Source of the DNA: Bryum argenteum
Lineage: Eukaryota; Streptophyta; Bryopsida; Bryales; Bryaceae
Length of the DNA: 64,000 nucleotides
Assembly: GCA_037043015.1 (NCBI GenBank)
Contig: CM073322.1
Span: 30,871,864-30,935,863 of the forward strand
Reading direction: 5' to 3'
Shown here piece after piece: positions 1,662-56,910 of this stretch. The notes under the pieces are model-generated. The model was not told the origin of the DNA. It worked only from the letters and a program-made list of their open reading frames with translations, and searched no databases. How positions within the stretch are numbered: position 1 is the stretch's first letter; the number at the start of each line of letters is the position of its first letter. The position numbers were made by a program, and so were the translations under genes.

Positions 1662-2630
1662 CCCCTAAACGCCCGAGCCTATTTTTAGCAAAAAAGCACA
1701 TTTCCATAGAAATTGTCATAGATGAAAATCAAGAGAAGCTATTAAGATCTCAACCATACAAACTTGTAATAGACTTATTGAAGATCATGTGGACCAAAAT
1801 TTGAGTCATGAGGCCTTATAGATCGGGAGATCATAACATATTAATATCAAAAACAAACTGCAAAATTTCATCATTTTCACTTTGAGGTGGAAATGCTACC
1901 AATATACCTATTGCAATGAAAAAGTCACCAACTAGAAAGATGTTCACCTTCATCTTAATAAGTCCCTTACCCAACAAAAATTCATCAAAAAAATTTCTTG
2001 GCTCAAATAAAAGCCATGCAATGATAAAAACTACCGAACATTTTACAAAGGAAAAATAGTCCAAACTAGACCCTTTGCATTCAATTTCATGCCTTATCTT
2101 CAAAACATCTTCGATCTTGTTAAGGTCTCTACCACTTAGACTAGACTCTAATTGGAGGCCATCCCAAAAAATTAAGTTGAAATCCAACGGTGGATGAGGG
2201 AGATATAGCTCCTCAAATATCATCCATTTTCTCACTATTTCTGTTGACAAAACATCATTGCAAATCCAATAGCAAAGTCATTTGGATCAAAAAACTTCTC
2301 ACTACAAAGTTGTTAAGAATCACCTTAAGATCATGACCATGAAAAAAAAAATCATGAAAAACTGTTTTTAATTTCACATAATTGGCTTGCAATGGTAATA
2401 CATGCCCCATGCTTGGAAACCCAAAAACAAGAGCTGTCTTCACTAAAGTGCATTCCATTAATTCATACTTTATTTTATGGGCTTGCAAATCTTACAACAC
2501 AAACTAGACTTGATTTGGAACCTAACCCAAGTGATTTAATCCAAAACGGACCTTAGATGAAGAAGATATGGCTCTTCAAAGTTTCTGATGTACATCCAAA
2601 ATGTCGTTTTTCGACATCGTGGGCGTTTAA
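1662..2630. mobile_element. TTAA-flanked piggyBac-like element, family A copy 1
   Basis: It starts with TTAA (1658-1661) then CCCCTAAACGCCC and ends GGGCGTTTAA at 2621-2630, where it fuses with the next copy. Its right-hand GGGG is missing. The body shares extended similarity with copies at 2631, 23690, 31600, 50290 and 58471, including the inner palindrome TGTCG-AAAAA-CGACA near its right end. The reading frames inside (for example 1831-2250, minus) are repeated in other copies but resemble no protein family, so I treat the element as non-coding. Confidence 0.75.
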
Positions 2631-3603
2631 CCCCTAAACGTCCCTAGTGTCGAAAAACGACATTTTGGATGAAGGGCAGAAACTTTGAAGAGCCATAACT
2701 TCTTCATCCCGACTTCGTTTTTGACGAAATCACTTGGGTTGGGTCCCAAATAAAGTCTAGTTTGTGTGATACAAATTGCAGACCCATAAAATAAAGTATG
2801 AATTAATGGCATGCATTTTAGTGACAGCAGCTTTTGGTTTTGAGATTTCAAACATTGGGCATGTTTCACCATTGCAAGCCAATTATGTGAAATTTAAAAT
2901 ATTTTTTCATGAATTTTTTTTACATAAGTATGATCTTTAGATGTATTCTAACAACTTTCTAGTTACAAGTTTTTTGATCCAAATAAATTTGCCAGTGGAT
3001 TTGCAATGATGTTTCTACAATGAAAAAAGTGAAAAAATGGATGATTTTTGAGGAGCTAGATCTCCTTCATCCACCGTTAGATTTCGACTTTATTCTTTGG
3101 GATAGATTCCAATCATAGTCTATTTTAAGTGGTAGAAACCTTAACCTAATTGAAGATGTATTGAAGATAGGGCATGGATTTGAGTGCAAAGGGTCTAGTT
3201 TTGGACTAATTTTCCTTTGTAAATTTTGAGGCAGTTTTCACCATTGGAAGGCTACTATTTGAGCCAAGATATTTTTTTGATGAATTTTTTTGGTACAAAA
3301 GTGTTTTTGAGATGAAGATGAACAACTTTCTAGTTGGTGATTTTTTTATTGCAAATTTCATGTTGGTAGTATTTTCACTTCAAAGTGGAAATGATGGTAT
3401 TTTGTAGCGTGTTTTGCGCACTAATATGTTATGATCTCGCAATCTATGAGGTCCCATGAGTCAAGTTTTGGCCCACATGATCTACTACAAGTCTATTACA
3501 AGTTTGTACGGTTAAGATCTGAATAGCTTATCTTTATTTTCATCTATATCACTTTTTTTGAAAATGAGTTTTTGGCTAAAAATACCCCAAGGACGTTTAG
3601 GGG
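2631..3603. mobile_element. TTAA-flanked piggyBac-like element, family A copy 2 (973 bp)
   Basis: It starts CCCCTAAACGTCCC and ends GGACGTTTAGGGG, between TTAA at 2627-2630 and TTAA at 3604-3607. It lies in the opposite orientation to copy 1 and abuts it directly. The palindromic TGTCGAAAAACGACA is at about 2648-2662. No transposase is encoded, so it is non-autonomous. Confidence 0.8.
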
Positions 3604-4229: not shown

Positions 4230-4530
4230 GGGCATTCCCAACAGACTCGTTAAATGTAGTGAGCCACAAAAGGGTTTCTAAGTATAGCACCCCTTTGATT
4301 TCACACCCTTTCCCAAAGAATTCGCTAAATGATCTTGCAATATTTTGGTTTTCCCTACACCACAACAAAAAAAAAAAAAAATAGAGTACTTGAAATATAA
4401 AACTCCAAGCATTTTGAGGTTTTCTAGTAGGTGGCATGAGATTTCCTAGAAGTCAAGTCAACTTGAAGTAAACAACAACGCGCAATTAAGCAATTATGCA
4501 CCCGGCTATTTAAAAGTGCACTTGGGTACT
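4230..4530 (+). repeat. left terminal inverted repeat of the 12-kb transposon
   Basis: Conserved blocks against the right end are 4230-4242, 4251-4265, 4482-4501 and a GTGCAC-containing stretch at 4516-4526. Between blocks the two ends have diverged, and the left arm is about 100 bp longer, partly through an A-tract near 4368-4381. Confidence 0.75.
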
Positions 4531-5065
4531 ACGATGACCATTTCTTGCAAAAATGGAATTTTTTATTTTTAAACTTGATTTTTTCTGGAAAAAAAGGTGT
4601 TTTGCAAAGAATGTTGCGTATTGTCAGAAGTGGTAATATAAAAATACTTCTAATGGCATTGTGAACATATTTTTGGTATAAATCCATGTGAATAATACAA
4701 ATATTTTTGTCCAGGGATATTTGAAATGCTTAGTATATGCTACAAATTGTGTAGATTATAGTTAATATATTTTTGGTGAGCAAAATGACGCGAGCACCAA
4801 ACTGTTAATAAAAGTAGGCACCAAATTGTTCCAATGGACATTTAATAAAAATATACTTCATATTGTACTTTGTATATATGTGTTAGAAAAGTATTTAAAT
4901 ACACAGATTCTAAATGTATACCAAGTTATGTATATAACTGATAATACAACTAAATTCAACCCATATGTTCATCGCAACAACACGTCTGAAAATAATCCTT
5001 GCGATCTTGTACTATCTAGTACGTATATACACTTAGAAACACCATGTGTACACAAAACACATGGA

Positions 5066-8000
5066 CTACATACTAATATCTAATGCGGCTTGCAAGCGGT
5101 CATCGTCGATAGCTTGGGTTTGCATTGCGATATATTCTAATATGTGGGCCTTCGCAGATTGGATAATGCAAATGTTGCTTGGAACCTGCACTCCAAAGAC
5201 ATTGCGGTTTCTCCCCCGACTATGACCAGACATGATTCTTTCTGGTTCGTCCGCCCATGAAAAAATACATGCCTCTTTCTCTATCCAATCGTGATTCTCC
5301 CCAGATGGCTCCCACAATGAATCCAAACAGTTTGCATACCGTTGTAAAGAGGAACTCGGTCCGTCACCAACTCCCCCTCGAATGATTGGCCAATACCAAC
5401 AAACTTTCATCTTGATTTTATTCCGGCCTTTTCCGTCTTCAATCACCTTCCCTAAATAAAATGGAACACCCTCGTGTACTTCTGCACGATCAACACTGAG
5501 GGCTACAAATTGTCCAGAACGGATATCGGATTGAGGATCAAATTGGGGAAAAGGATCGTCAGTACCTTCTGATACCGCTCTTTCTTCGGTTCCATCAAAG
5601 ATGTGACTGCGAGCCGTTCTTTGTGCCCTATGCACTGCTTGGTTAGGTGGCCTCTCTCTTCGATGACCAAAGTATCCTCTAACCTCAGAATTTGGAAGCA
5701 TCGCCACTATTTGGTCCACAATAGTAATCTCGTGGTTTGATTCATTTCGATCGTCAATAACATCTATTGATGCATCTACAATAGGTGATGTCTCTAATAC
5801 CTCTGAAGGCCAAAGCTGTGAAGAACTATGCTCGTTGCTACGATCTTTGCTTGGGAATTCGGCTAGGTATAGTTTCAAATGTTCTGCCTCTTTTAGCTTC
5901 ACCATTTTTTCCGGATGTTGGAATCTTTGAATGCACCTTTTTTTGTATGCAATAAAGTCATCCAATGCCTTCAACTCCCTTTCATCACCGCAAACACCTT
6001 TGCAAACGATGGTCGTTCTTCTTTATTTGGTAGCGATTGCAACGTCTTTGTCCCCGACTCGGTCCCCATTTATCCTTGCTATAATGTTTGTGTTGTCTTT
6101 CGGCCTTACCGACCCCCTCTCGATTGTCCATATAGAATCGCATGTGGTGCGGAAAGGTTATCCAACCAAAGAGTCCCCACCCGTCGAGAAGTGAGGGGTT
6201 ATGAAGGACTTCCAGTCCCACACATTTTCTAAGAGTCTGGCGCTAACAAACGCCTCTGTTATGGATGTACCTTGTTCTATTAGACTAAGCATTTCCTTCA
6301 ATGAGTCGATGTCCGACCTCTTCAATACATTAGATATACAACTAAAGCGTTGGTCGATATCTTCGTGTGTATGGCCCACTATAAGGAAAGAGAGCTCCAC
6401 CTCTTGAAAAAAACCCAATCCCACCAATGAAACACATAGAGCAAACATGTAAATGTTTTTATTCTCTCGTGTGCAGTTATACGCTTGGATACGTAATGTT
6501 GGAGGCAAAAAGCGTTTTCTCCTCTTCACATCTCCTATCACGTGCAACAATGTGCTCACCACCTGGTTGCTATCATGTTTGTGGTGCGCGCCGAACCACA
6601 CATCGCAGTATAAACCAATCCCATGTTTGAGGGCTCCACACAAATGGGTCTTCACAAACCGATCTCGATGTTCTTCACGGCGGTTTGACGATTCTCGGTA
6701 CTACCATGGTAGTGTTTTGATCCACGCCATCAACAATGATGCACATGTACAACTCCGGTGATATAGCACGACCTCTTAAATATCCAATAATCTCTCCGCT
6801 CCTCCATCCGAATACGCAGATGCATCATAAACAACTCTTTTATTTTGATCCGAGCATCTGCATTCGTGGTTCCCTCCACGGCACATTTATATTCCCAAAG
6901 AAATGATAACACTTTGAAAACCTCGAGAATGGAGGTACGCGGGCGTGAGGATACCTGATGCGCCACATCCTCCCTGAACGAGCTAATTGAAATGGTTTCT
7001 CCGTTACAAACTCTCTTCACCTCCTCGTTCACGTAATTGAATATATCGACTTCCGAGTATTCATGGGCGGGGAGAATAAGAGGCACCACTTCGTTGTCAT
7101 CCTTACGAAGAATTGAACGATGAGGTTGAGGACAACCGAGCCTTCGTCCACAAATGATTTAAATGAGGCCTCTCGCCGACATTCTATTCTAGTCTTCTCC
7201 CGAGCGGGTTTGAAAGGTCATTCGCGTGAATCGCCGCCACTCTTCCATATATTAAACACTCCTTCTTCATTGTTTTTAAACCGTCTTTGTGAATATCCAA
7301 TGCCCGGAAGCATACAAGCATTACAAACTTGTTTGCCATCTAACTTTGTGACAAATTTATCTCGTTGGAAACGTTCCGTCCGTGTATAAAAAGAAAGCAG
7401 CATTTGTCTCATCCAAGTACTTCGAATTGCATAAGTAGAAGCCCACGCATTATAACGCATGTCCAATAGATACCGTTCTTGAATGTCTCTCAAACAATTT
7501 TGTTTGCATCCTCCTCGCCCTATTGCCCTTTGCACGCTTGGAAGAGATACCTTCGTAGATATACCTTCTCTAGAAGATGTCTCCCTGGAATCTCTGCTTC
7601 TTCTATTTTGCATAGAATATGGACGTCGGGCCGCTCTGACATGAATAAGCCCATCTACATGGGGCAAATCTCGGATGTTGGAAAGAGTACTTTGAGAAAA
7701 TGGAGAGTTCTCATCTACGGGGTTTGAAGCTATCTTCTTTGCAGACCTATCAGTGGATCCAGGTGTGTTGAAGTTGTCATGGAAATCAAATTCTTGTGTC
7801 AACCTCCGTACAGGTGGTGTTTGAGACCCATTCAATACGTCCTCGCCATTTTGAATGGTGGGTTCCATGGCTATCGCACGTAGATAAGACTTGTGCCAAC
7901 GGATGATCAATCCAACACACATTCCAAGACGTTCTCCCACAATCTCTCCAGTCCAATGCAATGCATCGTCTACCCTAGTGATGCGTACTGCCACCTCGGA

Positions 8001-8267
8001 CGGGAATAACTTCGATCCATGCAATTGCGCGCCAGTTTCAAATGTATACTCCCTAGTTGCCAAGCCGACAACTTCTCTTCTTTCTGATAACAATTCAAAT
8101 GTCCTTTCCAATTGAGATGAAATGACCTGAGTAATACCATCTCCAGTCCGCCTTGCACGAGCTGCTCGTATTAATCGCGCTCCCACTGAACCGTTCGGAT
8201 TAATGACATCGCTTCTGTATTGGGTGTTTTGATGTACTAAAGGGATTTGGAAATTGGAGCTGTCCAT
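5066..8267 (-). pseudogene. DUF7869-domain transposase-like protein, decayed
   Basis: The translation runs through the family order I know for DUF7869 proteins. There is an N-terminal ~350-residue part (8267-7218) with a Cys-containing module (GGCKQNC ... KQVCNACMLPGIGYSQRR). Next come a central helical part (7089-6770), an acidic motif VDGVDQ (6734-6717), the block KTHLCGALKHG, then CTRENKN and VGHTHEDIDQRFS (6655-6158). A C-terminal region (5974-5066) carries VCWYWP and ends near IFSW. The RNase-H-like acidic spacing makes a DDE-type transposase likely, which is my inference. Breaks: an in-frame TGA at 7218-7220, and frame changes near 7110, 6770, 6690 and 6170. The Asp expected before NCTRENKN is Tyr (codon 6479-6481). 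Some gaps could be introns, but the stop and the Asp loss argue for a dead gene. Confidence 0.75.
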
Positions 8268-8289
8268 TGTCGTTGTTGAACTAATAGGA

Positions 8290-9630
8290 ACCTATACATT
8301 GCAAACATGTGAAAATATGTGTGTAAGCAATAGAAAATATCATTCATTCAAACGAACATATGTTCAAGGACATAAATTTTTGCTTCCAAACATGATTGTT
8401 AATGTTGGTTACTAAGTTCGTAATGATATTATATATAATTGTTAAGATTGTTTAAAGTTGTTAAATTACTTAGGATTATCTTGTGTACTTTATTTATATA
8501 TAAATTAACGGTTTATCTACCTCTACAGACATGTGTTGGATAAAATAATACGATGCTAAGTTTTGATTACGTGGAAATAACAATAATCATGTTTGATACC
8601 TTGTCCAGACTATGTTACACCTTAGGAATTGGATTGTTTGCGTTTCATAATACATTGCTAAAAATCGTTGATTGAAATAAAAATAGACAATGACAACATG
8701 AAATGGCGTCAAATTACTTTGTACCTATGGCAATTTCCATTATAAATCCTACATCATGCTTTGAGCGTGCATAAAATCACAAAGATGGTGGTATTGTTTA
8801 GGATAAAGGAATAATTATTGCAATGACAATGATTATAGAAAGTTACAACTTACTTAGTTACTTATAGGTTCAATTAAATTTGCAAGAAAAAATAATATTT
8901 GCAATATTCATTGTATGATCTATTTTCATAGCGATGGATAGAATTATCATGTGTTCTTGTATGAATGCAATATATTATTGTTTGGAAAATATGGTAATTT
9001 TAAACTTTAACTTTAACTTCTACTACATTATAAAAATGAAAGTTGAATAAAACTTGCAACCAATGATTCAATTGCACTCAAGTAGGAACAAAGTTTTATA
9101 GAAGAACAAAAAATATTAAATCAAATTGTAACTAAATTATTCCCACCTCAATGAGTTAGCTTTATAGGGCTTAGAACCAAGTGGTGTTCACACCACATGT
9201 CCATTCTTAGACATGCTCTTCAATAGATGTAAAATATATAGACCTGGAAACATACAACAAATAAACCGGAATTTAGCAATGCAAACACTCGTGCGTTAGA
9301 GATTATTCAACTAGTAACTTACATTTTGAGTCATCTTGGAATTTGAAAGAATAAATAAATAAATAAATTTCATTTTCAGTGAATTTTAAGAATTAAAAAA
9401 ATGATTCTCAACACACAACAAAATTTCAAGAATTTAGTGAAACAATAACTTGTAGATTACATTAGCCTTCTACTAAAATCATTCAATTGTTTTCATAATT
9501 ATAGAAAGTTTTTTAAAAAACTTAACATACAACAAAATTGCTATAATACAACAATAAAAATACCTTCGATTAGACATCCATCAACTAAAAATGACATAAT
9601 TTTTTATTTTATTTTTTTAAAAAAAAAATA
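8290..9630. other. AT-rich centre of the 12-kb transposon, no gene
   Basis: Very AT-rich DNA lies immediately upstream of the DUF7869 start and probably includes its promoter. No frame, hairpin or sub-repeat of note was found. Confidence 0.5.
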
Positions 9631-9634
9631 TAAC

Positions 9635-9688
9635 AAAAGAGGAGGTGGTAGAGGTGTCCGGGCGAACACCTCTACCACCTCCTCTTTT
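9635..9688. repeat. perfect 23-bp-arm hairpin
   Basis: Arms 9635-9657 and 9666-9688 are exact reverse complements around the 8-base loop CCGGGCGA. It marks the left edge of a compositionally distinct (CT-rich, GC-richer) island inside the AT-rich transposon centre. Confidence 0.85.
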
Positions 9689-9730
9689 GATTTTCATCTG
9701 ACCTCCCCGCTTCGATCTTCTGGCACACTT

Positions 9731-9915
9731 GCCGTTTCTTCCTCCTCCGCTCTTGCTCGTGTTTTTGAAGGTCGTTGTTGCCGTTTCTTCCTCCTCCGCT
9801 CTTGCTCGTGTTTTTGAAGGTCTTTGTTGCCGTTTCTTCCTCCTCCGCTCTTGCTCGTGTGTTTTTACGCAGTTGCTATTGCCTTTTCTTCCTCCTCCGC
9901 TCTTGCTCGTGTTTC
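9731..9915 (+). repeat. tandem repeat, ~49-bp unit, four copies
   Basis: Units starting near 9731, 9780, 9829 and 9881 share TTCTTCCTCCTCCGCTCTTG. Reading frames across this array on both strands are low-complexity (Leu/Phe-rich or Arg/Ser-rich) and I do not consider them genes. Confidence 0.8.
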
Positions 9916-10408
9916 TCAAGAACGCTGCTAGGACGATCTGTAGAGCACTAGGAGAGTTTCGTGACTTGTTGCAACCAAAAATCTTTTTGCCGATTCTCCT
10001 TATCGCTTGCTCTCTGCTGCATCAATCGCCGCTTGCTTTAGTACAATCGAATCGGCCTTTGCTATTGTACCGAGATCGCCGCTTCTTGTTGCTATCGAAT
10101 CGATGCTTGCTACTTGCGATCTTGTTGCTATTCCTCATTGCTATCACCGGGTATTGTTGCTCTCTTGTTGCGGCGTGCATTTTGGGTTCTTGTTCGCTCT
10201 TGTGCAGTGACGCTACTATTCAAGTCATCCCACTTTGTACTCGATATGTTAAAATCTTCGTCTTCCTCCCTTCATCCTCTTTGTGGTCTTTGTTGCAGCC
10301 ATGCAGCCGCCACCAAAGCCACCAAAATCCTAATCTTAAAACCTTAAACCCTAAAAAATTTTAAGAATCATTAAAAAATAGAAATAATAAAAAAATTATG
10401 AGAGATTG

Positions 10409-10436
10409 CAAGGGGTGTGCGCGCGCACACCCCTTG
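10409..10436. repeat. perfect 28-bp palindrome
   Basis: The string CAAGGGGTGTGCGC is followed at once by its exact reverse complement. Its GGTGT...ACACC core resembles that of the hairpin at 9635-9688, and the two bracket the CT-rich island. Confidence 0.85.
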
Positions 10437-10439
10437 AAA

Positions 10440-11570
10440 CAATCAACCAAGTGAACTCCAATAAACATCCCATTTACTATATTAAAGCCATTTCAAACGT
10501 CTGATACCCGCCCATGAGGGATACCCGCCCATATTGATACCCGTCATACATTATAATTACTTGCTTAAGAACAAGAAAAATGAAAACATTTAGCAACACA
10601 TGATAGTAAAAATATTAATGTAGATATTGCAGAACTAACATCTTTCACATACAGTCGTTTGAGACTAAAGAATATTACCTTCTTTTACGATTCCAAATTT
10701 CTAAAATTGTCTTCACTGTAAAAAGAGCATTTAACCCCAGTCAAACATGTTCGCACATTTTGGTCAAGGGAGAGAAAAAAAACACTATTTCCTACATAAA
10801 ACCTATAGATCTTCATTTTATTTTTTTTATTTTTTTTCTAGCGAAAAATTTATGTGATAAATAAATTCTTATCAATCATTTTGGATTTTCATTCTAAAGC
10901 ATGTTGAGTTCACAAAAGAATAAAATGTGGCATAAAAGTTTGTCAAATAATTTCAATCTCGATCCTTTGCATATTTGTTTTGAATATGCTACACACCTTT
11001 TCCATGTCTAGAAATTGGTTTTAAGGTAACCAGCATGATCATGCCAATCATGATTTTAAAGAAGTTAGACCTTGTATAGTGAATTTTTTTTAAGCCAAGT
11101 GAAATTAAAGTGTGCTAGACCACTCAATACAATTAAGCAAATGAATTATTCTTATGATTTCAAATGCTATAATATTTTAATCCTTCCGATGCATAGTAGC
11201 CTAAAAAATTTGGTGGCTTTATATCAATGTTTATTTTAAGATTCTAGGATTAGAAGTCTTAAATTTCACTCTAAAACTAGATTTTAAAGCCACTTTTTGA
11301 TAGTGACAAATTTGAAGTGTTTCTTGAAGAATAATGGCCTAGGCTTTTCGGGGCTAAAGAGTCGTCAACCATAAAACATCTTCCACATGAAGTCATATTA
11401 GAATCAAAACAAACAAAATGGCCTATGTTAGTCTATATTCACATGAACCATGTGGTCGGATGGTGAATTTTGGTATAAGTTATCAATATTTTATTGAATA
11501 GAAATCAAAACAATTGTCAAATAGACTCTAAATTACACCATATTAACCATTATGATATTGTGTTCCAATG
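10440..11570. other. AT-rich centre of the 12-kb transposon, no gene
   Basis: AT-rich DNA upstream of the rightward gene block, probably including its promoter. A short tandem (GATACCCGCCCAT, twice) occurs near 10502-10530. Nothing else is recognised. Confidence 0.45.
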
Positions 11571-11580
11571 ATGATCGAGG

Positions 11581-14500
11581 TTGCCATGCCGCAACGTCGG
11601 AACCAACTGCAAAATCGACAAGACATGGGAGAAGCACGGATGGTGGATTGTAGAAGAGGACCCCTCAAAGCCTTATTTGTGGATGACGCACCAACCTTTT
11701 AAAATAAGGGACCGTACGTCAGCGTTAGGCAAGCGTTTTGGCGAGATTCAAGCAATTACTACCCGCCCATCGTCTGACATGATATATGTGATGTGTGTCC
11801 CAGATGCTGATGAAGCAATGCAGAAGACTTCTCTCTGCCGAGGCGACCTTCTTCTTGCATCCATTCCGTAATCCTTGCTTGCAAGTTAAGGGTCCGTGAA
11901 ATTTCTCAATACCTTGCTGAAATTTTGGTGAATATCGCTCTGCAGTGACGCGTAAATGAGGCAGGAGCATATGTCACATTGTCTAGGGTTATCACAGGAG
12001 GATGTGGCACGAGCAATGGTTCTTATGGATGCCCATATTAAGTACGAAGCATTACTAGAGGCGGATCCAACACATGCAACATCACAAGGTCCACCAGCAG
12101 AACCAGAAGAGACGGATCCAATTCATCGTAGTTATGTTATCGGAGGTGAGTTGGATTACCAGCCACTTCAGCAGATTGCACAATCTGTGTCCGTTCGTTC
12201 AACATCATCATGACTCTCGAGCCGCTGTAGGAAGTGTTCCTCTATCCGGAAGAGGACGTCCTTCAAAGCGGCCACGACGTGAGAGAGGCGACATAGCATC
12301 TGGTTCGGGTGGACGATCGTCGAATGTGGCTCTGGTGGTGCGAGGTCAACCGGACGAGGATCGAGGCGCGTGGTAGGGGTAGTGGGTCTACAACCATGAG
12401 GTTTCACTCAACATGGAGCATCTCGCATGTACCGAGTTCTTCACTGAATGTATCGGCAGGTGGAGGACGAGTTTCGAAATATCGGACCGTAACGAAGAGG
12501 ATTGAGTCGGAACCGAGGATGGCGTTGGAGGCCTCAACGTCAAGTAAGTTCCTAGCACCGATACCTCACCAAGCGAAATCGCGAAAGGATCACTATGGGG
12601 GGACATTGTATTCGAGGTGAAGATCGACAAGATTATCCAAGTGGAGAGTCCTTTGACAAACCATCGGGTACTCTCTGCAAAGAGAGTTAGAGAGGTTTAT
12701 GACTTTATGAGACATCCAGAGAACAAGACTTGTGTGAGCAAGTTGGTTCTTCGTCCGATCAAGTACATTGTGGATGTCACTACTGACGATGGTGTGGTTC
12801 GGCAAGAAGAGGTGGCATTCCCCCTCGAAAGAGCTCAACGAGAGTTCCAACGCATATTTGATACACACGGATTAGCGTCTATTCACGGTACAACACATTC
12901 TCAGTTGTGTTGGCTTCAGGAGAGGATCATTTGGGAGCCAGTGGATGGACAACACATTGTTGCAGCCTGCAATTTTGCGAAGGAAGAGGTTGCCCAACAC
13001 AAACTCTCACATGCTGAGTTTATTAACATCTTTGAAATGCGGGAGGCAACATTTGTCGTATACGATGATCCTGCATTGTACCTAGCGAAGTCCGCGCGAG
13101 TCAACAAGAAGGAATGGAATAGGACAAAATATTCCACCATGGATGAGGACTTGAGAAAGCTACGCGAGATTTGGGAGTTGTATGGGAAGCCTGATAGCTT
13201 GGTTCGTGCAGACGATGAACGCAGGGCTAAAGCTCTAGTGTGTGCGGCTAATGCAGTGCAGAAGAACCTTGTTGAGGGCAACAAAGGTATAACAATCAAG
13301 AGGTTGGCAAAGCAGATGCATGACTTGACCATTCATGCGTGGAATCCTCGGCGCGAGTGTTACGAAGCTATCCTTCAAGTGTGCAAGGACTACGAAGATG
13401 GCCATCTCTTTTATAGCAAGGAAGAGGAGAAGAAGTGGAAGGCGTTTGCAGACAAGAACAACCTAGATCCTCTCTGTGGGATGTACGGGAGCATCGGAAG
13501 CGAATGACCATGCATTGGTTGAGGCCGCTGAATGTGGTTCCACAGTCTGCTTATCTACGGCTAGTCAAGTCTTGTGCAGCTAAGCCAGTGGGGGAGGACA
13601 GCCGCAGACCTCGACAATCATATTACTTTCACGCCATCAAGGATGCGTCTAGGGATACCCGTACTATTGCAGGTGCAGTTGACCGGATCATGAGACAAGA
13701 AGCGGTCGCTAATATCGCTCGTTGGTTAATGGTGTCCAACAAAGAGTGCTCACCCAATTCCATGGAAGAGTTCTTCCACATATCTGTACGGAAGTATTTT
13801 CCCGGGGGCAAGGAGCAAATTGATGCATTTGGCAAGGACTTGGCCAAAGACACAAAAGCCGCATGGGCTAAACCTACACGAGAGAAGGTGCCCAAGTTGG
13901 CAGACATAAGTGAACTTATTCCCACCTCCATCAGGTTCACTATCGTGACATTGCAACAAGAACACATGGAGAAGTGGAAGCATCGGCGAGATGAGGGTGG
14001 TGCGACTACCGTCACATGGAAGTGGGTGTTCTGAGTTCGAAGGCCAACTCGCACCAAAGACACCGGATCATCTTATGGTTCGAGCTTGGAAGGATTATTT
14101 CATCCCGATGTCCAAAGTGATTGACACAATCATACTTATGGGTTGTTGATTGTCGGCGTGGTGGGGAAAGCGTGGAGACGGTCCTTGGGAAGAAGAAGCG
14201 ATTCACCAAAGTTATTGCACAATTGTCGGCGTGGATGACGGGCGTTGAACGATGGAACAAGATTCTCTCGTTACCACCACCGTGTTTGCTAATGCCGAGT
14301 TGTTCGCGAAGCTCAAACTTCCCGGCGGTGGCACTCAACGACATGGATGTTGGGCATTTGGCGCAAACTCGGTTGATCGAGATGCCCTCAACTTTACACA
14401 TGGTGGTCGATTCTGACAAGTGGTGGAACCATTTGGAGGTGTTGTTGTTTATATGCAACACCGCGCTGATACTTCCCCAACCAGAATTATGTTTAAGGGG

Positions 14501-15324
14501 ACCGTCCCACTACCACTTGTATTTCACGATCAATGGAGTGAGACACATCAACCGTCGGAGGGTGATAGACTCGGCGATCGCCATCCGAGCTCTCTAGATC
14601 GGTGGATGCGTATTTGCCAATTGGTTGAGGTTTGGCCGCGTATAACATTACAACGGCCATTCCGACAATCCTTCATGGAGGTTTCCATGGATCGGAGATC
14701 ATTGTCATTGACGATAGCCTAGAAAGGCTAAACTTCTTGTATACAAAGTTGTTTGTCAACTTCCAAGGACAATTTCAGATCCCTGAGATGACAGTGCAAC
14801 AAGGAGCGCTAGCGTTGGCATTTCCGAGGCGAAGATCCGATGAACATAGGTTCGAGAGGAAGGCGGTAGTGACGAGGACGAGCTTGGAGATGAAGCGGAT
14901 ACTTCTATTCCAAAGACCATACACATTGGCAAATGTCGACGGCCGCCGCGTGAGTATGGCGATGATGTACCCCCCCGATCATAACTCATGTGACGACGGA
15001 CTTCATTCGTCTGTGGAACCTAATGGCTTTGAGGAAGGATCAGAGATACCGGAGGTGGTTCTAGATACTCCAATTCAAGCGAGACCAATGGTGCCATCCA
15101 TTCCACAATCTACAGAATCAGCGGACACCATAGCTTTCAACGAGGCCTTCGCACCAATGATGACATTTAGAGACGGCTTCTACTATAACACCGATGGCAT
15201 AAGGTACACTCGCCACGGTGAGCGGCGATTCTACATCGCACGAGTCTGCGTCCATCCCATGGTCTTGAAGATTCTATTGATCCCCAGTGTCGGCGGGGCG
15301 GTGGATCGATCGTATGGTACATGA
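11581..15324 (+). pseudogene. second transposon-encoded gene block: ParB-like and methyltransferase-like, decayed
   Basis: Successive open segments (11581-11871, 11956-12213, 12074-12376, 12617-13507, 13435-14034, 14035-14722 with three stops, 14632-15324) share codon style and order, as expected of one or two spliced or broken genes. A basic AT-hook/NLS-like GRGRPSKRPRRERGD lies at about 12248-12292. Segment 12617-13507 has SPLTNHRVLS, then WEPVDGQHIVAAC followed by FVVYDDPALY. This order resembles a ParB/DGQHR-type fold (inference). Segment 14401-14800 has VEPFGGVVVYM, then AIPTILHGGFHGSEIIVIDD followed by SLERLNFLYTKLF. The latter resembles the end of an N4/N6 DNA methyltransferase (weaker inference). 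I see no clear DPPY/NPPY motif. Frame changes near 12220-12600, 13490, 14030 and 14640 could be introns or decay. Confidence 0.5.
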
Positions 15325-16068
15325 GGCCTATGAAGCGTCTGCACTGTAGGACAATGGACGAGGATGATTAGAGCATCAGAGATTTATAAGTAGCAAGTCA
15401 ATATGATGTTTAGGTGGCATGTTAGGTTTGATTGATATGTTTGAGTAAAGTATGAGATGTTTGGTTATAGTATTATGCATGTTATATTATAGTATTTACT
15501 ATCGCTTTCTAAAGACGCGTTTATGAATTTTATGTATGGATTTTCATATAATATAGAGCGAGATGCTACATATTTTCTCGTTGAATAGCACATGTTGGCC
15601 TTTTATCTCTTATAAAGTATGTTTGTTGTATAAATGCCAAAAATAGTATATAAATGTCATATAGCAATGTACAACGTAGAAGTTCGTAATCAAAATTGCA
15701 TTGAATCTAAAAAGAAACACTATAGGAAGTTCAAGGACAAAATTGAATCTTTGAAATTCTTTAAATTTCAATTTTTGCACTCCAAGACGTGATGTTGTCC
15801 TTCATATTGATCCATTGGGATTTGTATTCCAAAAAATTATATGGTACACAAAATAATAAAATAGATGTTGGCAATATTTGAATATAATAATTTGGTAGTA
15901 TTTACAAAGCAATAAAACATGATTTAGCAACAAATTTGTTATTAAAAAAATACTATTTCTCATTAGTTTAAGTTTAGTGCCTCCACATTTAAAATTTTTT
16001 TTTGTGTGGAATTTTTGTTGTTTTTTTTCATTTTGGAGGAAAATGTTGTTGTTTTGACATGCCATTGA
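15325..16068. other. AT-rich 3' flank inside the 12-kb transposon
   Basis: AT-rich DNA between the end of the rightward gene block and the right terminal repeat, likely 3' UTR and subterminal sequence. No separate gene is seen. Confidence 0.45.
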
Positions 16069-16233
16069 GTGCACTTGGCAAAGTGCATAATTGCTTAATT
16101 GCGTGTTGAACGTGTTTGAGTGGGAGTTGAATGGATAGCCACGGCTCTGGCTGTCCATTGGAAAAAGAAAATGACCTTTGCCTCGCTACATTTAGCTAGT
16201 CTTGTCCTTTTTGCCCGTTCGTTGAGAATGCCC
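16069..16233 (-). repeat. right terminal inverted repeat of the 12-kb transposon
   Basis: The reverse complement matches the left end in blocks: 16221-16233, 16186-16198, 16083-16102 and a GTGCACTTGG string at 16069-16078. It is shorter than the left arm. Confidence 0.75.
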
Positions 16234-16236
16234 TCA

Positions 16237-17032
16237 AAGGTCTTAGAGGGTGGCAACCTTCAACTTTCTCGGAAAATGAGCAAGTCAATTTGTTAATTTT
16301 GAGTTCTTTCAAAAATCCCTAAAATTATAATTGTAGGAGCTTTTTGGATACTAAACTAACAAGCTCCACAAATTTTTTTGAATGTTTTACCACATAGATT
16401 GCCAGATCCATGCATTTGATGGGATCTCGAGCACTCAAAAAAAGAGATTTGGGGACTAGACTTTGGGCAAGTGGAACAATCACATATTATGCCCAACTCA
16501 CACCCTCTCTTAAGAAATGAGTAAGGAGGGTTACCTACCACTCCAAAAAACTCTTATAATCATTGAGTTTATAAACAACTGGTGTGGCTTGTGATCAAAG
16601 AGAAACTTAGGAACTTGTTCTCTTGAAAATAAAAAGAAATCATGAATACAAGGAGTTGGACAACGTCAACCAATCGGATTAGAATTTTTGAATCTAGTTC
16701 AATTGGTCAATGCAAAGTGCCCAAGAAAAAACATCTTGCCTTGCTTGTGCTCGGAGGCTTACAGAAGAAAAAACTTAAAAAGCAAGATGCGAATTTGTAA
16801 ATTGCATATGAAACTAGACCTCCAAAATAAAAATTGTATTTTCTAGAAACAAACATTCTAAAGGCTACAAAAACCTTTTAAATCTTGGATTCACAACAAT
16901 TGAGTAATGTCTATGGGTCCTTTAGAGGCTAAATTCCAAATTGGGATCAAGACTCCCTAAATTACGTAAAAGCTAAACCTCAAAGCCTAAAAACTAAATC
17001 CCAATGTTACCTTTTTGAACTCAACCCAAATG
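16237..17032. other. intergenic DNA, nothing recognised
   Basis: Lies between the 12-kb transposon and the micro-retroposon at 17044. No gene-like frame is seen. Confidence 0.45.
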
Positions 17033-20748: not shown

Positions 20749-23042
20749 ATGGCAAACAATGTGAGATGGGGTTCGAATCCCAGATATGTTGTGTTGGTGT
20801 TGATTCTTAGCAAAATTTTGTGTCCATGCTATGGACAATGGTGGTTTTCTACGACCGAAGCATCGCCGCCGTCCTCCTCTTCGACTGCCAGCCCTCCTTC
20901 CACCACTTCCGAATACTACTCAACAGCTCCTCCGCCACCTTCCACCTCTTCCGAATACTACTCAACAGCTCCTCCGCCACCTTCCACGTCTTCCGAGTAT
21001 TACTCGACAGCTCCTCCACCTGAATTCGGTGCAGCCAGTCCGCCTTCGACAACAGACTATTCGCCGCCAGCCTCGGTCACTACAGCGAGTCCACCCTCAT
21101 CAATATACGATAATCCGCCGCCTCCGAACAGTTTCGCATCTCCAACAACGCCTCCGCCGCCTAGTTTTGATTTCCCGACTCCCCCAGCCGCATCGCCGAC
21201 TGCTACTGCTCCTCCACCTGTAACTACCACCAACAGTACCACTCTCATTGTCATGTCTTACTCGTTCTCATTCGGGCCTGAGACTATCTACACGTCCGTG
21301 CAGGATGCTATCGATGCGATCCCAGGTAATCCGAAATCGATCCCATCTTTCGCTATCTGTTCCCCTGAATCGATAACCTTCGTGGACTTTTCGCCGTGCA
21401 TGATACTGATGGTTCATGTTCTCTGGCAGAAAACAACACACAATCGGTCACCATTGTGATTCTCTCCGGCACTTACACGTGAGTGTGCCCACACTGTTAT
21501 TCTATTTTCTGGATACCCGGCGTACCATTCTAATTCAGAGCTCTTTTATAATTTGGGCAGGGAGAAAGTATCAATCCCGGCAACCAAGCCTTACATCACA
21601 CTTCAAGGAACTGGAAGAGACTCCACAATCATCACATACAACGATACTGCCAATAGTACCGGCTCCACCACGAAGAGTGCCTCGGTCTCTGTGTACGCCG
21701 ACAGTTTCACGGCACGGAACCTCACATTCCGGGTGCTTGCTTCTCAACTCCACTCTCGCCAGTTCAACTTCTTGTGTTCAAACTCGCACAGAATTTTCAA
21801 ACTGAAAGCCCTCATTCTCGCTGCAGAATTCGGCACCACATGCTTCGGGAGGGGAAATTGGTGCGCAGGCAGTTGCGTTGCGGATTACAGGAGACATGGC
21901 AGCTTTCTACGGTTGCGGTTTTGTTAGCTCGCAGGACACTCTCTTGGATGAATCAGGTCGTCACTACTTCCGAGACTGTTACGTGGAGGGGAATATTGAT
22001 ACGATCTGGGGTAACGGACAATCTCTATACAAGGTACCTGATCGGCCTCGATCTAGTCCCACTCTTACTCATAGTCACTCAGTGGTGTCTTCTATTTAGG
22101 ATGTGCATTTGAATGTTGATCGATGCTGGCATTTGCAGTATTGCGAGATAAATTCGACGGCAGGTGATAGCGGCGGAGGAAGCATCACAGCCCAAGGCCG
22201 TAGCTCAGACAGCGAGTCCACCGGTTTCACGTTTGTGGGGGGCTCCATTACTGGCAGTGGCGAGAGTATCCTTGGTCGTGCCTACGGTTTGTACTCGCGA
22301 GTTATTTTCATCGACACATACATGGATGACGTGATCAATCCCGTGGGTTGGACTGACTGGCCTGTATCCGTGTCCAAAAGGTACCCCTATCACCATTCAG
22401 CCTCTTTGCTCAAATTCGAATCTGTAGAGCTCTCAGCATATGGACAATTCTTTCAAAATGGCAACAGTGTGTTGCCATTTGTCCAGGTGCCAATTTGACG
22501 TACCAGGCCTGCCATTTTGTCACAAAAGCGTCACTTTGTTGACATACTTGGTTATGGTTTTTAAATGCACCTCCAACGCCACTACGGAACACTCATTACT
22601 TCTCTATAATATCACCCGAGCTTTTCTTACCAACTTCTGGAGTACTTTAAAATGATATTGTCATTTTCATTGTCTGTAATTTTAATGGTCAATATTGCTG
22701 GAGTGATCTTGACGTTTCTTCTCCCTGAGTGTGTGTCTATGCAGCAGTTCGCGTCGCCTGTTACAGAACTCAACAACAAGGTAACCTAAAATTCTGTTGG
22801 TGTGAGTTTCCACTTATTGATTCTAAGGATGATCTGATCACTGCCGAAAGGATCCGCGTTAATATGTTAAGAGATTGTGTTTTTGCAGACATGAGTACTA
22901 TGCTGAATTTAATAATACGGGTCCAGGAGCAAACTTAACAAGTCGCGTAAGCTGGATGATTAACTTAACTGAGGCAGAGGCTGACAACTTCTCAAGCACA
23001 AGTTTCATTGATGGATCCATATGGCTCACTTCGGAGACCTAA
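20749..23042 (+). CDS. pectin methylesterase with Ser/Thr/Pro-rich N-terminal region, 6 exons
   Basis: Exons 20749-21325, 21430-21478, 21561-21732, 21827-22033, 22139-22380 and 22889-23042 join to 466 residues. A signal peptide (about residues 1-29) is followed by a ~130-residue Pro/Ser/Thr/Tyr-rich stretch with repeated SEYYSTAPPPPSTS, extensin-like and probably wall-embedded. The CE8 domain follows: GTYTEKV, QAVALR (Q280), GFVSSQDTLL (Q302, D303), YVEGNIDTIWG (D324), LGRAYG (R382) and YMDDVINPVGW. The catalytic acids and Arg are present. The usual Trp after LGR-P is Tyr384, as in some group members. There is no inhibitor-type (PMEI) pro-domain. It would hydrolyse methyl esters of wall homogalacturonan. 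I chose the 21827 acceptor over a nearer AG because only it restores the frame. Confidence 0.88.
20906..21020 (+). repeat. 42-bp in-frame tandem repeat in the pectinesterase gene
   Basis: About 2.7 copies encode SEYYSTAPPPPSTS. The period is 42 bp (14 codons), so copy-number change keeps the frame. The copies differ by only a few bases. Confidence 0.85.
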
Positions 23043-35457: not shown

Positions 35458-37549
35458 TCAGAGAATGGTAGAGGGCAAGTGGGGTCCAATAGCATCAAGC
35501 TCAAATTGTTTGGTACGAGGAGCGAGCACAGCCAAGCCATCGTCAAACGCAAAGCGGTCGCTCTTGTTACGAGGATTGACCCAAACGAAATTCGGGTCGA
35601 CATACTCCTCGCAGACATCCTCGCGCTTGTTGATGGTGTTGTGGTAGTGGTAGTAGTTCAACGGGTCCGCGTACGTCGTGGCATTTTCGCCGATCAAGTG
35701 CCCAGAGCGGTGGATGCCGGTGGCCATGGCCTTGCGCGGTTGAATGGCGTACTTACAGTCGTGGGACTCGCGCACCTTGATGCTTTTGAATACGAGTTTC
35801 TCAAATGTCCAAGTACTGTGCATCAACAAAACTCGTCGTCATTTACTACCATGACAGAGTCAGCAGGTGTAATTAAGACCTGACAATGCTCAACTGAATA
35901 CGGGATCCCTATTCGGTTGACCGTCGTGATCTCTCAACTTGCGCAGCTCTCGTTTCTGAGTTCTGGCAATGTGTCGCATCTTAATGGTGGTCATGAGCAC
36001 TTGGAATTAAAGGCAATGACACTGTAAGGGAGAAGCAGCTTGCCTGCTGTTGTCGTTCATTTGAGTGCTGCACAGGTTTTTGGACATGGGTTTTTGCCAG
36101 ATGATGATCTGCGACTGATTCTCGTAGCGGCTCACGATATCAGCGAGGTCGTCATCGTCAGGCGGAGCCCAGAGATACTCATCGACGTCGAAGAAGAAGA
36201 GCCATCGGGCGAGGTGACGCGCGCGGTGGAAGCAGTCGTTCACCACCATGAACTGATTGTGGTAGTACCCATCAAATTTTTCCTGCGAGCGTATGTTATC
36301 CAGTGTCACTCTGCCTGCTTTGATCCAAGGCGCGATGACGCGCAGTACCTCGTCGTGCACCCCGCCTGCGTCGTAGAGAAAGAAGTGCGAGCGCGGGCCG
36401 AAGAAATGCGCGTGGTACGCGAGCCACTCCCTGATTTTTTGGGGGCTCAGGTTTCCGAACAACGGCGAGCCGCAGTAGATGTAATCGTATTGGGGTGGGC
36501 TGTCTGCGTCTTCGAAAGCTTCCACGGGCTCCGTGAGCGCCAAAATGCGTTCTGCGTTGCGAGGGAAAAAGTCGCCATAGCTGGCGTACAGCACGAGCTG
36601 CCCGCCTTTTCTGTCCACACCCACGTCCTGTGCGAATGTGCAGTTGATTATCACCGCGCTGTAGAGGCGACTGTACACGTTGCCTGTATCTGGCAGCAAC
36701 TTGGTAGCTGTGCCTTTGAGCGGCGCCCATGTCACTGACTCCTGCCCCGGAATCCACACGCACTCGTACGGCGGGTCGTTGTAAAGCTCAGCTGGGTTCT
36801 TCGCTTCCAGCCCCACCACGGCGAACGAGTTCGCGCTCCCGCGATACGCCGACATCTTGATGAACTGATGCACTGCCACGCCGTGCGTGTCGAAGTGGCG
36901 CACATTCTCCAATTCCCTCGAACCATTCTGCACATGCCCAACTCTCTGAGTTTCAAATGAGACGTACCCACTTCAAGCCTCAAAAGCAGAGCTCTGATTC
37001 TCGATTTCTCGATTTCTCATATATACAACTTCGATCAAAGTAGTACAGCATGACTTTCATCATTCCATAGATATGCATTGGCTTACGAATTCGTGCAGTA
37101 AATGATGTTTAACGGAAGTCAGAAAGCACTAGTGATCATTGCAAGGCTATCTCGGTCAACGGGAATTCCACTCATAGCGAATACATGGATGGAGTCGGTA
37201 CCTTGGCAAGGGAGCTGCTAGTACTGGATTTGGAAATGCGATGATGGTGAGTAGTAGCAGCAGCTTTAGCAGGCAACGGCATGGGATAGTGCAAATCGTC
37301 AAGCCCGCCTCTCAAACAACCATCGCCGATTCCGAACGAGTCATGACGTTTGGAGTGGAGGACATGCAGAGCAGTGAGCAGGAAGACGGAGTTCACCACC
37401 ACGAGGAGCAGCATCTTGGCCAGCCATATCCGGCAATTACTCACTTCCAGCAGGGCGTTGCTACTGTCTCCTCTCCACAGCTTTTCATTGAGCTCTGACT
37501 TTCGAAGCCACTGCTGCTGCTGGCGCCCCATGGCCATGGGATTATTCAT
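35458..37549 (-). CDS. GT92 glycosyltransferase, beta-1,4-galactan synthase-like, 3 exons
   Basis: Exons 37549-37202, 36927-36044 and 35815-35458 (minus strand) join to 529 residues. A type II membrane anchor (MLLLVVVNSVFLLTALHVL) follows a ~45-residue cytosolic tail, as expected for a Golgi enzyme. The GT92 (DUF23) domain shows PPYECVW, YDYIYCGSPLFG, REWLAYHAHFFGPRSHFFLY, DGYYHNQFMVVNDC and the nucleotide-sugar motif FFFDVDEY. The last exon carries YYHYHNTINKR. Plant members (GALS) extend beta-1,4-galactan side chains of pectic rhamnogalacturonan I from UDP-galactose. Intron 2 uses a GC donor (AG/GCAAGC at 36044/36043). The last exon has the same length (358 bp) and intron phase as in the paralogue at 55027. 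Confidence 0.9.
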
Positions 37550-53712: not shown

Positions 53713-55026
53713 GGACTATACATGGAGGCTCGCCTACAGAGGTGTACAGTACCTACCTTTAGACCATGTCCTCCTCCTACACACGATTTCCTCGATTTGT
53801 GTCTGCCATGATCAGTGGAAGTAAACCCCAGCGACAATTGCTTGAAAGCAAGACAGGGTAAAAAGTTCAACATCATTGACCCGAAGACGGGGAAAAGACT
53901 ATACTGATGAAGACTCGTGTACACAATACAGACACTTCTGCCATTTATACACACAAATGACAAGCTCACGAGCTTCGTGACCGACAGAGCTGCTTCCGAC
54001 TGATGCCGAAATCAACACTTTTCCATAGAAATAGGGTAATCATCCCTCCGACCGATGGCTGACCCCGTCAGTCCTCCAGTTGATGAAGACGACGACGGCG
54101 CACCAGGATTGTTGAAAATATGATACAAGCTGAATGGTTAACCTGAAAATGGTAATGAAAAGAACAGCACCTGTCCTGCAAGTGTGCCGTGTGAGTAACT
54201 TTTTGAGTGAGAAAATGGTGGTTTATTGGGGAAAGTGGAAATGTTTACTCATTCTGTTGTGATCAATTATTGGGTCTTAAAAGGGGCCTTGAGAGAGTTT
54301 ATAGAAGCACCTTATTTGTGTGATGGACTTTTCCGTGTTATGTAAATAGAACACAGCTCATTAGATACTTGTTAAGAATTTTCCACAAGGGAGAGGTTGA
54401 TCGTACTTTCGGATCAAGGCTCCTGTTGTGTAGCAGTGAGCCAGGGCGAGGAACTGTGGCTCCTTCCTTGGGCAGGCTGCCTGCTCAGGTGCAACCTCGA
54501 ATGAAGTAACCAGGCAAAAGCCCCGAGCAAGGTGCTGCCTTGCCGCGCTCTGACGGCCACACGTGGCCCGGACTCTTTCATGTTTCAGGTTCGCTCGATT
54601 GTCCGAGCTCAACCAGGACAGGACAATTCGGAGCTCGAGGTTGCAAGCAGGGAAGGAACTCCGGCGTTTTGCGGTGCGGGTACTAGTTAGCTGGGTTTTG
54701 AACGCCGACGAAGCTTAGCAAGCTCTGACAATCGTCGATCTTCTATTGAATTTTCCTGTCGACAATCGCGTTGTAGCACTGTAATTGGAGTTGGTGGGAT
54801 CAATGAGTTGATGAGCTCGGACATGGATTGAGAGATTTACGGAGAATCGCAATTTTCTCCCTGGGGGATGCGGGCTGTACTGCTAGACTTTCTTTCTCAT
54901 GATATGCGAACTGTGTTAGCGATGGAATTTTTGGGTTTGCAATCTGTGAGAGAATTTTGTGAGAGAGTTATTGAAATAGACGAGCGGGGAATTGTTTGAT
55001 TAGCTTGGTTGGACATTCCCAAAACT
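53713..55026 (+). promoter_or_regulatory. upstream region of the rightward GT92 gene
   Basis: Holds the presumed promoter and leader of the gene at 55027. Composition becomes GC-richer from about 54.4 kb. No convincing TATA box and no other gene are seen; the frame at 54361-54612 (minus) has no family resemblance. Confidence 0.4.
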
Positions 55027-56910
55027 ATGAAGGATTTCAAGGATGGTGTGAAACAGGGGAGGGAGGCAGGGAGAGTGAGGCAGCAGGAGAAGCAGCTGTG
55101 TATGAGGGAGCTGGGTTGCCAAGCAGCCGTGAAGTTCCGCATGACGACGTGCTCCGACATGCGGATCAACATGGTGTACATCCTCGTGCTAGCTTGTGTC
55201 GTCTTCGTAATCCTGGCGCAGCTGCTCTCGCGCAATTTCTACAGTACTCGGCTCCTGTGCACTTCGAACCAGGTTCCCGAAGTGGTCAAAATGACCCGTT
55301 CGGAGCCCACTTACGTTGAGAATCTGAAAACACTCCCCCCTGACACGTCGAGAGGAGAGCGCCGTGTCTTTAAGGCGCACGGGATCGCCACGCACTTGTT
55401 CATCGAAATGGGCGCGTATCGAGGGAGCGCCCTAGAATTTAGCATCGTGGGTCTCGTGGCGAAGCCAATTCAAACTTTTCATGAGCCACCGTACGAGTGC
55501 GAGTGGCGTGGAAAGGGGGAGGTCCGCAAGGGAAAAGCGCACAAGATGCTTCCGGATTGGAACTATGGGAAGCTTTATACTGTCGTGGTGATCACGTGCA
55601 CGTTTCGGGAGAGTGTCGGGGTGAAGGGCGAGGGTGGGACGTTGTTGCTGAAAGTTGGCTATGGAGACCCGTACAGGATTCCTGAGGAATTCCTTGTGCT
55701 GGTGGAGCAGCCGGGGGAGTACAATGCGACGAAGTTCAATCCTCCTTACCCTTACGACTATGTGTACTGCGGATCGTCGATATACGGCGACGTGAGCCCG
55801 CAGCGGGTGCGCGAGTGGCTGGCGTACCACGCCTACCTCTTCGGTGAGCGCTCGCACTTCATATTCCACGACGCGGGCGGAATCCACCCCGATGTGTGGA
55901 CGGTTCTGGACCCGTGGGTGAAGGCCGGAAGAGTGTCGGTCCAGAACGTCAGGCAGCAGGAGATTTACGATGGGTATTACCACAATCAGTTTCTGGTGGT
56001 GAATGACTGCTTGTTTCGATCAAGGTTCATGGCCAACTGGACCTTCTTCTTCGATGTTGATGAGTATATGTACGTTGCGCCCACGACCACCCTGGATAAA
56101 GTCCTGAATGCCGATCCGAACGTCACCCAAATTACCATCGAGCAGGTCCCCATCTCCGAGAACATCTGTGTCGCCGACAACACCACTATCGACGGCCATG
56201 CACGGTATGCTTAACCAGTCCATGGGGTTCATTACCGTATTGGGTTCCGCACTTTCAAATGTCTGGGTAGAGTCATCAGTGTAATATCACGGTTGACTAT
56301 TCACACGCTTCTCCTCCCAGTCATGAGTACCTACAAGAACGAAATTGTCTGCCATACTAACGAAGGTGGAAGCAACCAGTTTCATCCCTCATCGAAAAAG
56401 AAACTATGACGTTGCCTAGAAATTAGTGTAATCGCAATTTCCATGTGATAGTTTGCAGTGCCAACTCAGGCTCCAGCACGGATGACTCATTGCTAATCTC
56501 GGACACATGTAATGGGTGATGCTAAAGTGTTAAAAGTGTGGTGGTGGTGCAGGAAATGGGCATTTGAGAAGCTAGTGTACAGGAAGACCTCGAGGAGAGG
56601 GGTGCGATCCGACCGGAAGTACGTGGTGCAAGCGCGGCACGCAGCGGCGACGGGGGTGCACATGTCGATGAACATGCGGACGGGGAAGAATCTGTACCCC
56701 AAAGGTACTCAGCTCAGGTACTACCACTACCACGGCACCATCAACCAGCGGCAGGAGCTTTGCAGTGAGTTTATCCGACCTGAAAACAAAACCGGAGTGC
56801 AACGAGTCCGGAGCCAGAACCACCGACTCGACGATACCTTGGTCCCCATTGCGGACCTCGTGAAAGCCTACGAGCTTCGAACTGTCGGAGCACTGCCTTT
56901 CATCTTGTAG
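55027..56910 (+). CDS. GT92 glycosyltransferase, beta-1,4-galactan synthase-like, 2 exons
   Basis: Exons 55027-56204 and 56553-56910 join to 511 residues. A type II anchor (MVYILVLACVVFVILAQLL) predicts a Golgi membrane protein. The GT92 domain shows PPYECEW, YDYVYCGSSIYGDVSPQRVR, EWLAYHAYLFGERSHFIFHD, DGYYHNQFLVVNDC and FFFDVDEYMY. The last exon contains KWAFEKLVYRK and YYHYHGTINQRQELC. As in plant GALS enzymes, UDP-galactose-dependent extension of pectic beta-1,4-galactan is expected. It is a clear paralogue of the gene at 35458-37549: the last intron has the same position and phase and both last exons are 358 bp. Unlike that gene, it has no intron between the stem and the catalytic domain. 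The start is the first ATG in frame. Confidence 0.9.

Follow-up and report, generated by a model that had tools for sequence, protein, structure and literature searches.

The 64,000-nucleotide window analysed here, the whole stretch of Bryum argenteum DNA at C2:30871864-30935863 in a searched genome of 258.8 Mb and 25 contigs, holds two nested elements between positions 4230 and 16233. A decayed member, 11,631 bp long, of a large and high-copy DNA transposon family carrying a DUF7869 gene (4477..16107) lies inside an older, unrelated miniature inverted-repeat transposable element (MITE). Open reading frames and tblastn place two broken gene blocks head-to-head between the transposon ends, as described in an earlier, sequence-only reading of this stretch. 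The putative transposase gene occupies 5069..8267 on the minus strand (open frames, profile match) and is frameshifted in the window copy; its open frame at 6158..6700 matches the DUF7869 profile PF25273 over residues 11–172 of 180 (E 8.9e-48), bearing out the same reading. The broken partner gene, divergent from it and interpreted below as possibly ParB-like and methyltransferase-like, covers 11611..15324 on the plus strand (tblastn of P0003 and P0006, open frames). The intergenic spacer (8300..11600) contains a tandem repeat with 49–52 bp spacing (9729–9947) and a 27-nt hairpin (9634–9689).

The transposon ends were set by genome-wide copies. A search with positions 4230–4530 produced two classes of matches meeting near query position 246 (40 scored rows): before it the matches are old (72–75% identity), and after it they reach 95–100%, the window itself aside. 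Searches with 4470–4970 and 15700–16240 gave 97–100% identity (40 scored rows each), with non-window alignments beginning at 4471–4482 and ending at 16107–16120. Side-by-side comparison of the copies defines the left terminal inverted repeat (TIR) as AACGCGCAATTAAGCAATTATGCAC (4477..4501, plus strand) and its inverted partner on the right, in reverse complement, as AACACGCAATTAAGCAATTATGCAC (16083..16107, minus strand). The TIRs of the element are 25 bp long and read AACRCGCAATTAAGCAATTATGCAC. A 20-base exact inverted match reported earlier (4482–4501 with 16083–16102) is part of a longer one of 26 nt at 96% (4476–4501 with 16083–16108). The main segments of the window element are 95.5–96.8% identical to the C4 copy (L069 and L070).

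Outside these ends lie the left (4230..4476) and right (16112..16233) halves of the GGG-ended MITE that served as insertion target, the former delimited by the two match classes and both by the empty-site alignment; joined, they make a 369-bp repeat. The empty-site test used seven relatives (L002–L008). BLAST matches of L002, L004, L005, L006 and L008 clearly span the junction, that of L003 spans it by 14 bases and that of L007 ends at it. The alignment took in L003, L005, L006 and L007; the other three were omitted because their matches spread over more than 800 bp. In it, L005 and L006 are continuous across the junction, L003 is gapped there, and L007 is continuous, with a CAAC target. L006 also reveals the other end of the outer repeat, showing GGG-type ends and a TTA duplication. 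Since the relatives are joined across the junction and L006 has these ends and this duplication, the GGG ends and the triplet belong to an older MITE of Harbinger type. The inverted GGG blocks seen in the sequence-only reading thus exist at 4230 and 16233, but they are MITE halves and not the ends of one ~12-kb element, and the resemblance to PIF/Harbinger drawn from them belongs to a separate repeat. The outer repeat is like PIF/Harbinger and Tourist MITEs in its GGG-type ends and in the TTA duplication of L006, whereas the DUF7869 element differs from them in both its ends and the length of its target-site duplication (TSD).

Pairing of left and right ends among the examined loci yielded 13 pairs, 4.0–23.9 kb apart. 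Nine carry an exact 4-bp TSD, one has a 5-bp duplication (TTAAG), and three show one mismatch at 4 bp, one of the three also having an altered left end. The window copy belongs to this last group, with CAAC on the left (4473..4476) and GAAC on the right (16108..16111); the TSD length is set here by the other copies, and L007 has CAAC. Exact duplications of 2, 3 or 6–9 bp are absent from the 13 pairs; a duplication of 4 bp replaces the 3-bp one expected earlier. Mismatched end pairings, used as a control, gave exact 4-bp matches in 6 of 768. The TSDs of the window family are not confined to AWWT.

The gene stretch 5701–6450 is kept in 15 of 30 left-end loci (window included), kept in part in 1 and absent from 14; the partner stretch 14200–14660 is kept in 23 of 30 right-end loci, kept in part in 1 and absent from 6. 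Four short copies, assembled by joining end loci (123–771 bp unread), are internal-deletion derivatives without most of both genes, retaining ~1.0–1.2 kb on the left and 1.4 kb on the right. They all have the deletion 11186/14667, and three have 5687/9188. The sequence-only reading had named ends occurring independently of DUF7869 genes as evidence against its proposal. Taken literally, such ends occur at 14 of the 30 left-end loci, which lack the tested gene stretch; they are not counted against a transposase role because the four short copies examined arose by internal deletion. On the chromosome that carries the window copy, a 23.9-kb member of the family with TSD TCTA (C2:30824125-30847999; L028, L041) ends ~28 kb upstream of it, perhaps through local hopping.

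Almost certainly, as had been proposed, a large class of elements has the DUF7869 protein as its transposase, because the DUF7869 region is predicted to adopt an RNase H fold with an acidic triad, the elements are bounded by TIRs and TSDs, and a partner gene recurs beside it. The RNase H fold had been suggested as a check; on the predicted fold, D520, D602 and D642/D644 of P0014 are near-invariant. In the window, the predicted first catalytic Asp codon (IIVDG, D520) lies at 6729..6731, the predicted second catalytic position (D602; Tyr in this copy) at 6479..6481 and the third acidic motif (D642-I-D644 of GHTHEDID) at 6353..6361, all on the minus strand. Frameshifted and lacking the second Asp, the window copy should not encode an active transposase. 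The C4 copy has an 831-amino-acid (aa) open frame with Asp at the second position, but is itself interrupted by a frame break ahead of the C-terminal part. Weak matches to BAH/SH3/Agenet-like domains were found in the C-terminal region of the transposase and to an RFX-like domain in the N-terminal region (P0012/P0013), together with a weak match to PF07592 in 1 of 61 (E 0.025). Comparison with the structures of the Mos1 mariner transposase and retroviral integrases gave 6–15% identity over the aligned part (rows shown); unlike these, the DUF7869 protein is much larger and its target is 4 bp. The mariner target is TA.

The PF25273 profile gave 1,809 first-look DUF7869 candidates in the genome, of which 150 were scored; all 150 listed rows are above the cut-off. 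A genome search with the partner produced 120 rows (117 candidates scored of 419), which merged into 102 partner loci and were paired with the best 150 of the 1,809 DUF7869 candidates within 15 kb. Such a neighbour is listed for 47 partner loci, and the two genes are head-to-head in 45 of these 47, at 5.4–11.6 kb centre to centre; random placement gave 0.4 head-to-head pairs on average and never more than 3 (500 trials). The true number is at least 45, because the DUF7869 list holds the best 150 candidates.

Two further families, C9 (13,449 bp) and C3 (11,694 bp), have transposases ~40% identical and partner genes 29–31% identical to that of the window family (P0015). Their ends are AACACAG in C9 and AACACTC/AACACTT in C3, with duplications ATAT and TTAT, respectively. 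For C9, TIR plus TSD agree at 16 of 16 bases; shuffled flanks reached at best 13 of 16, once in 30 trials. A subterminal AAAAGTGCAC is common to the window and C3 families. Long inverted repeats in L072 were rejected as element ends, being other repeats, with the likely ends found in adjoining stretches (8.4-kb pieces L071/L072).

The partner contains a DGQHI motif (12944..12958, plus strand) and an LWVVDCRRG motif (14136..14162, plus strand), conserved across the families by motif comparison. Its relatives have the DGQHI block and LWxxDCRxG in common, with V in place of I in L079. The more complete relatives are L076, with one in-frame stop, and L079, which stays open for at least 1,381 aa; three rows exceed 1,400 aa in open-frame length, the longest being 1,411 aa, among the 117 of 419 candidates scored. 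We take the motif order TNxR, LxLRPxxY, WEPVDGQHI, VVxxD, SxRxN to indicate a ParB-like fold, and LWxxDCRxG with the late Rossmann-like stretch after it presumably marks a methyltransferase-like domain, both as readings of motifs without profile support. Collectively, the motifs suggest that the partner may be a ParB-like/DNA-methyltransferase protein. The motifs were read in this way before the Ectocarpus paper cited below came to light, in a search aimed at ParB-like proteins.

In our reading, 4477–16107 is probably a defunct Sola-type DNA transposon that carried two genes, moved by cut-and-paste and most resembles Sola1. According to the published excerpts on which this comparison draws, here and below, Sola elements have a DDD transposase and a 4-bp TSD, in some cases exceed 15 kb and are present in Physcomitrella (PMC10741241; PMC9033089). 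In Ectocarpus Sola1-1_Ec32 (21.5 kb), the gene opposite the transposase encodes a 1104-aa protein with ParB-like and N4/N6 DNA methyltransferase domains, and similar proteins are noted in green and red algae (PMC12477816, published in 2025). The present elements likewise combine large size, a 4-bp TSD, DDD residues on a predicted fold and TIRs (25 bp in the window family) with a large opposite-strand gene, head-to-head in 45 of 47 co-located pairs. Compared by description, the partner as read here agrees with the ~1,100-aa Ectocarpus protein in size, orientation and putative domains, DGQHI and LWxxDCRxG being conserved with no profile match. Differences from Sola1-1_Ec32 include a length of 11–13 kb, AACRC ends and a plant host. 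Dictyostelid Sola2 elements also have an AT-rich 4-bp TSD, short TIRs and an 888-aa transposase (PMC3627910); their TSDs are AWWT, a restriction absent here, and they carry Fanzor genes, none of which turned up in our Pfam scans, made without a dedicated Fanzor search. We class the element as Sola-like, with Sola1 the most likely group.

In the mechanism we envisage, the minus-strand gene would encode a transposase of ~1,000 aa, in which the DUF7869 region and the strand just before it would fold into an RNase H domain that resembles integrases and holds three Asp residues. We infer that this enzyme would bind and cut the AACRC-ended TIRs and insert the element into mostly A/T-rich sites through a 4-bp staggered cut. 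The plus-strand gene, divergent from it in nearly every pair found, would supply a large accessory protein.

Several observations weigh against the Sola-type interpretation or parts of it. The assignment is made by anatomy, the element being set beside Sola by description. With Foldseek alone, no match to the predicted DUF7869 structure passed E ≤ 0.001, and the PDB matches it listed are of the Argonaute PIWI type, another RNase H fold. A distant DUF7869 locus, C1 (~26% identity), has no partner and no TIR or TSD within 16 kb. With the best 150 of 1,809 candidates listed, 57 of the 102 partner loci lack a DUF7869 row in head-to-head position; these say little either way because the list is so composed. 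Pairing is rare (3 of 50) among DUF7869 rows 101–150, the lowest third of the list, from which the C1 locus comes. In C3, TIR plus TSD agree at 14 of 16 bases and shuffles reach 13 in at least 4 of 30, so that its ends are less secure than those of C9 and owe part of their support to the AACAC start held in common. For the partner, no credible sequence match emerged from Pfam, NCBIfam, PHROG or PDB, and its predicted structure is poor (predicted local distance difference test score 50); Foldseek on this model gave nothing usable, and tblastn against phages returned just 3 records (E 1–7). A DPPY-like motif is the canonical methyltransferase motif. The partner, unlike Sola1-1_Ec32, lacks it, its place reading DCRxG in 4 of 4 covering alignment rows and in L079.

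This substitution, together with the head-to-head pairing with the transposase gene, makes it possible, if tentatively so, that the partner acts in the transposition complex as an ordinary DNA-binding subunit and not as a modifying enzyme, although the Sola1-1_Ec32 protein of similar size and orientation is predicted to be a methyltransferase (PMC12477816). It is unlikely that DUF7869 marks the transposase of a separate superfamily, close to Sola or Academ, whose 4-bp TSD is coincidental. In its favour, the Sola comparison is one of description and not of sequence, AcademX TSDs are also 3–4 bp (PMC10045372), and the range of DUF7869 covers sea urchin, mussel, amphioxus and liverwort. Academ lineages, however, have a helicase or nuclease (PMC10045372), and profile searches listed no Pfam match to an Academ helicase or XPG nuclease for the partner pieces or the long open copy L079; moreover, the partner type is reported with Sola1 (PMC12477816). 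We regard as very improbable that DUF7869 is a passenger gene in elements moved by another factor: the short copies show ends that are mobile without most of either gene, but the predicted integrase-like fold has near-invariant Asp residues, three families with different TIRs all carry DUF7869, and a scan of 8 open-frame pieces from the window element turned up no other transposase match. Least credible is a single PIF/Harbinger-like element at 4230–16233 with GGG ends, a 3-bp TWA target and a DUF7869 transposase: GGG-ended inverted blocks exist and L006 pairs such ends with a TTA duplication, but empty-site alignment and end pairs reject it, since both halves join as one MITE in empty copies and DUF7869 element copies end at ~4477/16107, while the 4-bp TSD and AACRC ends reject Harbinger membership, the Pfam listings for the gene pieces and the relatives (25 of 36 families) include no Harbinger transposase domain, and nothing apart from the GGG ends and triplet of the outer MITE was found to link DUF7869 to PIF/Harbinger.

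DUF7869 proteins also occur in sea urchin, mussel, amphioxus and the liverwort Riccia. Among viral contigs, 50 pattern matches included none confirmed. Among genome contigs, DUF7869 was present in 2 of 23 pattern matches (L073, L074), on 5–6 kb contigs labelled as Bacteroidetes metagenome-assembled genomes at ~25% identity; these are probably eukaryotic contamination, and no element ends were recognised in either contig.

Elsewhere in the window, a large foldback lies just left of the element (1692–3573), its nested inverted repeats measuring 567 nt (83%) and 374 nt (81%), and 42-bp tandem repeats occur inside a proline-rich open frame (20893–21018). Open frames at 36007–36972 (minus strand) and 55000–56214 (plus strand) look related, with common stretches YDYxYCGS and DGYYHNQFxVVNDC; we take them to be an apparently duplicated glycosyltransferase-like gene.

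Within the literature searched, which contained no mention of DUF7869, the link of this domain to Sola-type elements is novel, as is the repeated pairing of the two genes in a plant genome; the kind of element is already known, and the DUF7869 assignment is the useful part. The orphan domain would thereby gain a function, as the transposase of large DNA transposons, and many plant and animal "genes" with DUF7869 could move to the transposon list. We further speculate, as a rather doubtful proposal, on a land-plant transposon class with its own ParB-guided DNA modifier, using the non-canonical catalytic motif DCRxG and locked head-to-head to the transposase gene across divergent families. If true, the partner would let the element mark itself, so as to be hidden or licensed, and would bring bacterial-type adenine or cytosine-N4 methylation to moss DNA. 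As the second gene regularly belongs to these elements in a plant, the proposal that they modify their own DNA would become testable there.

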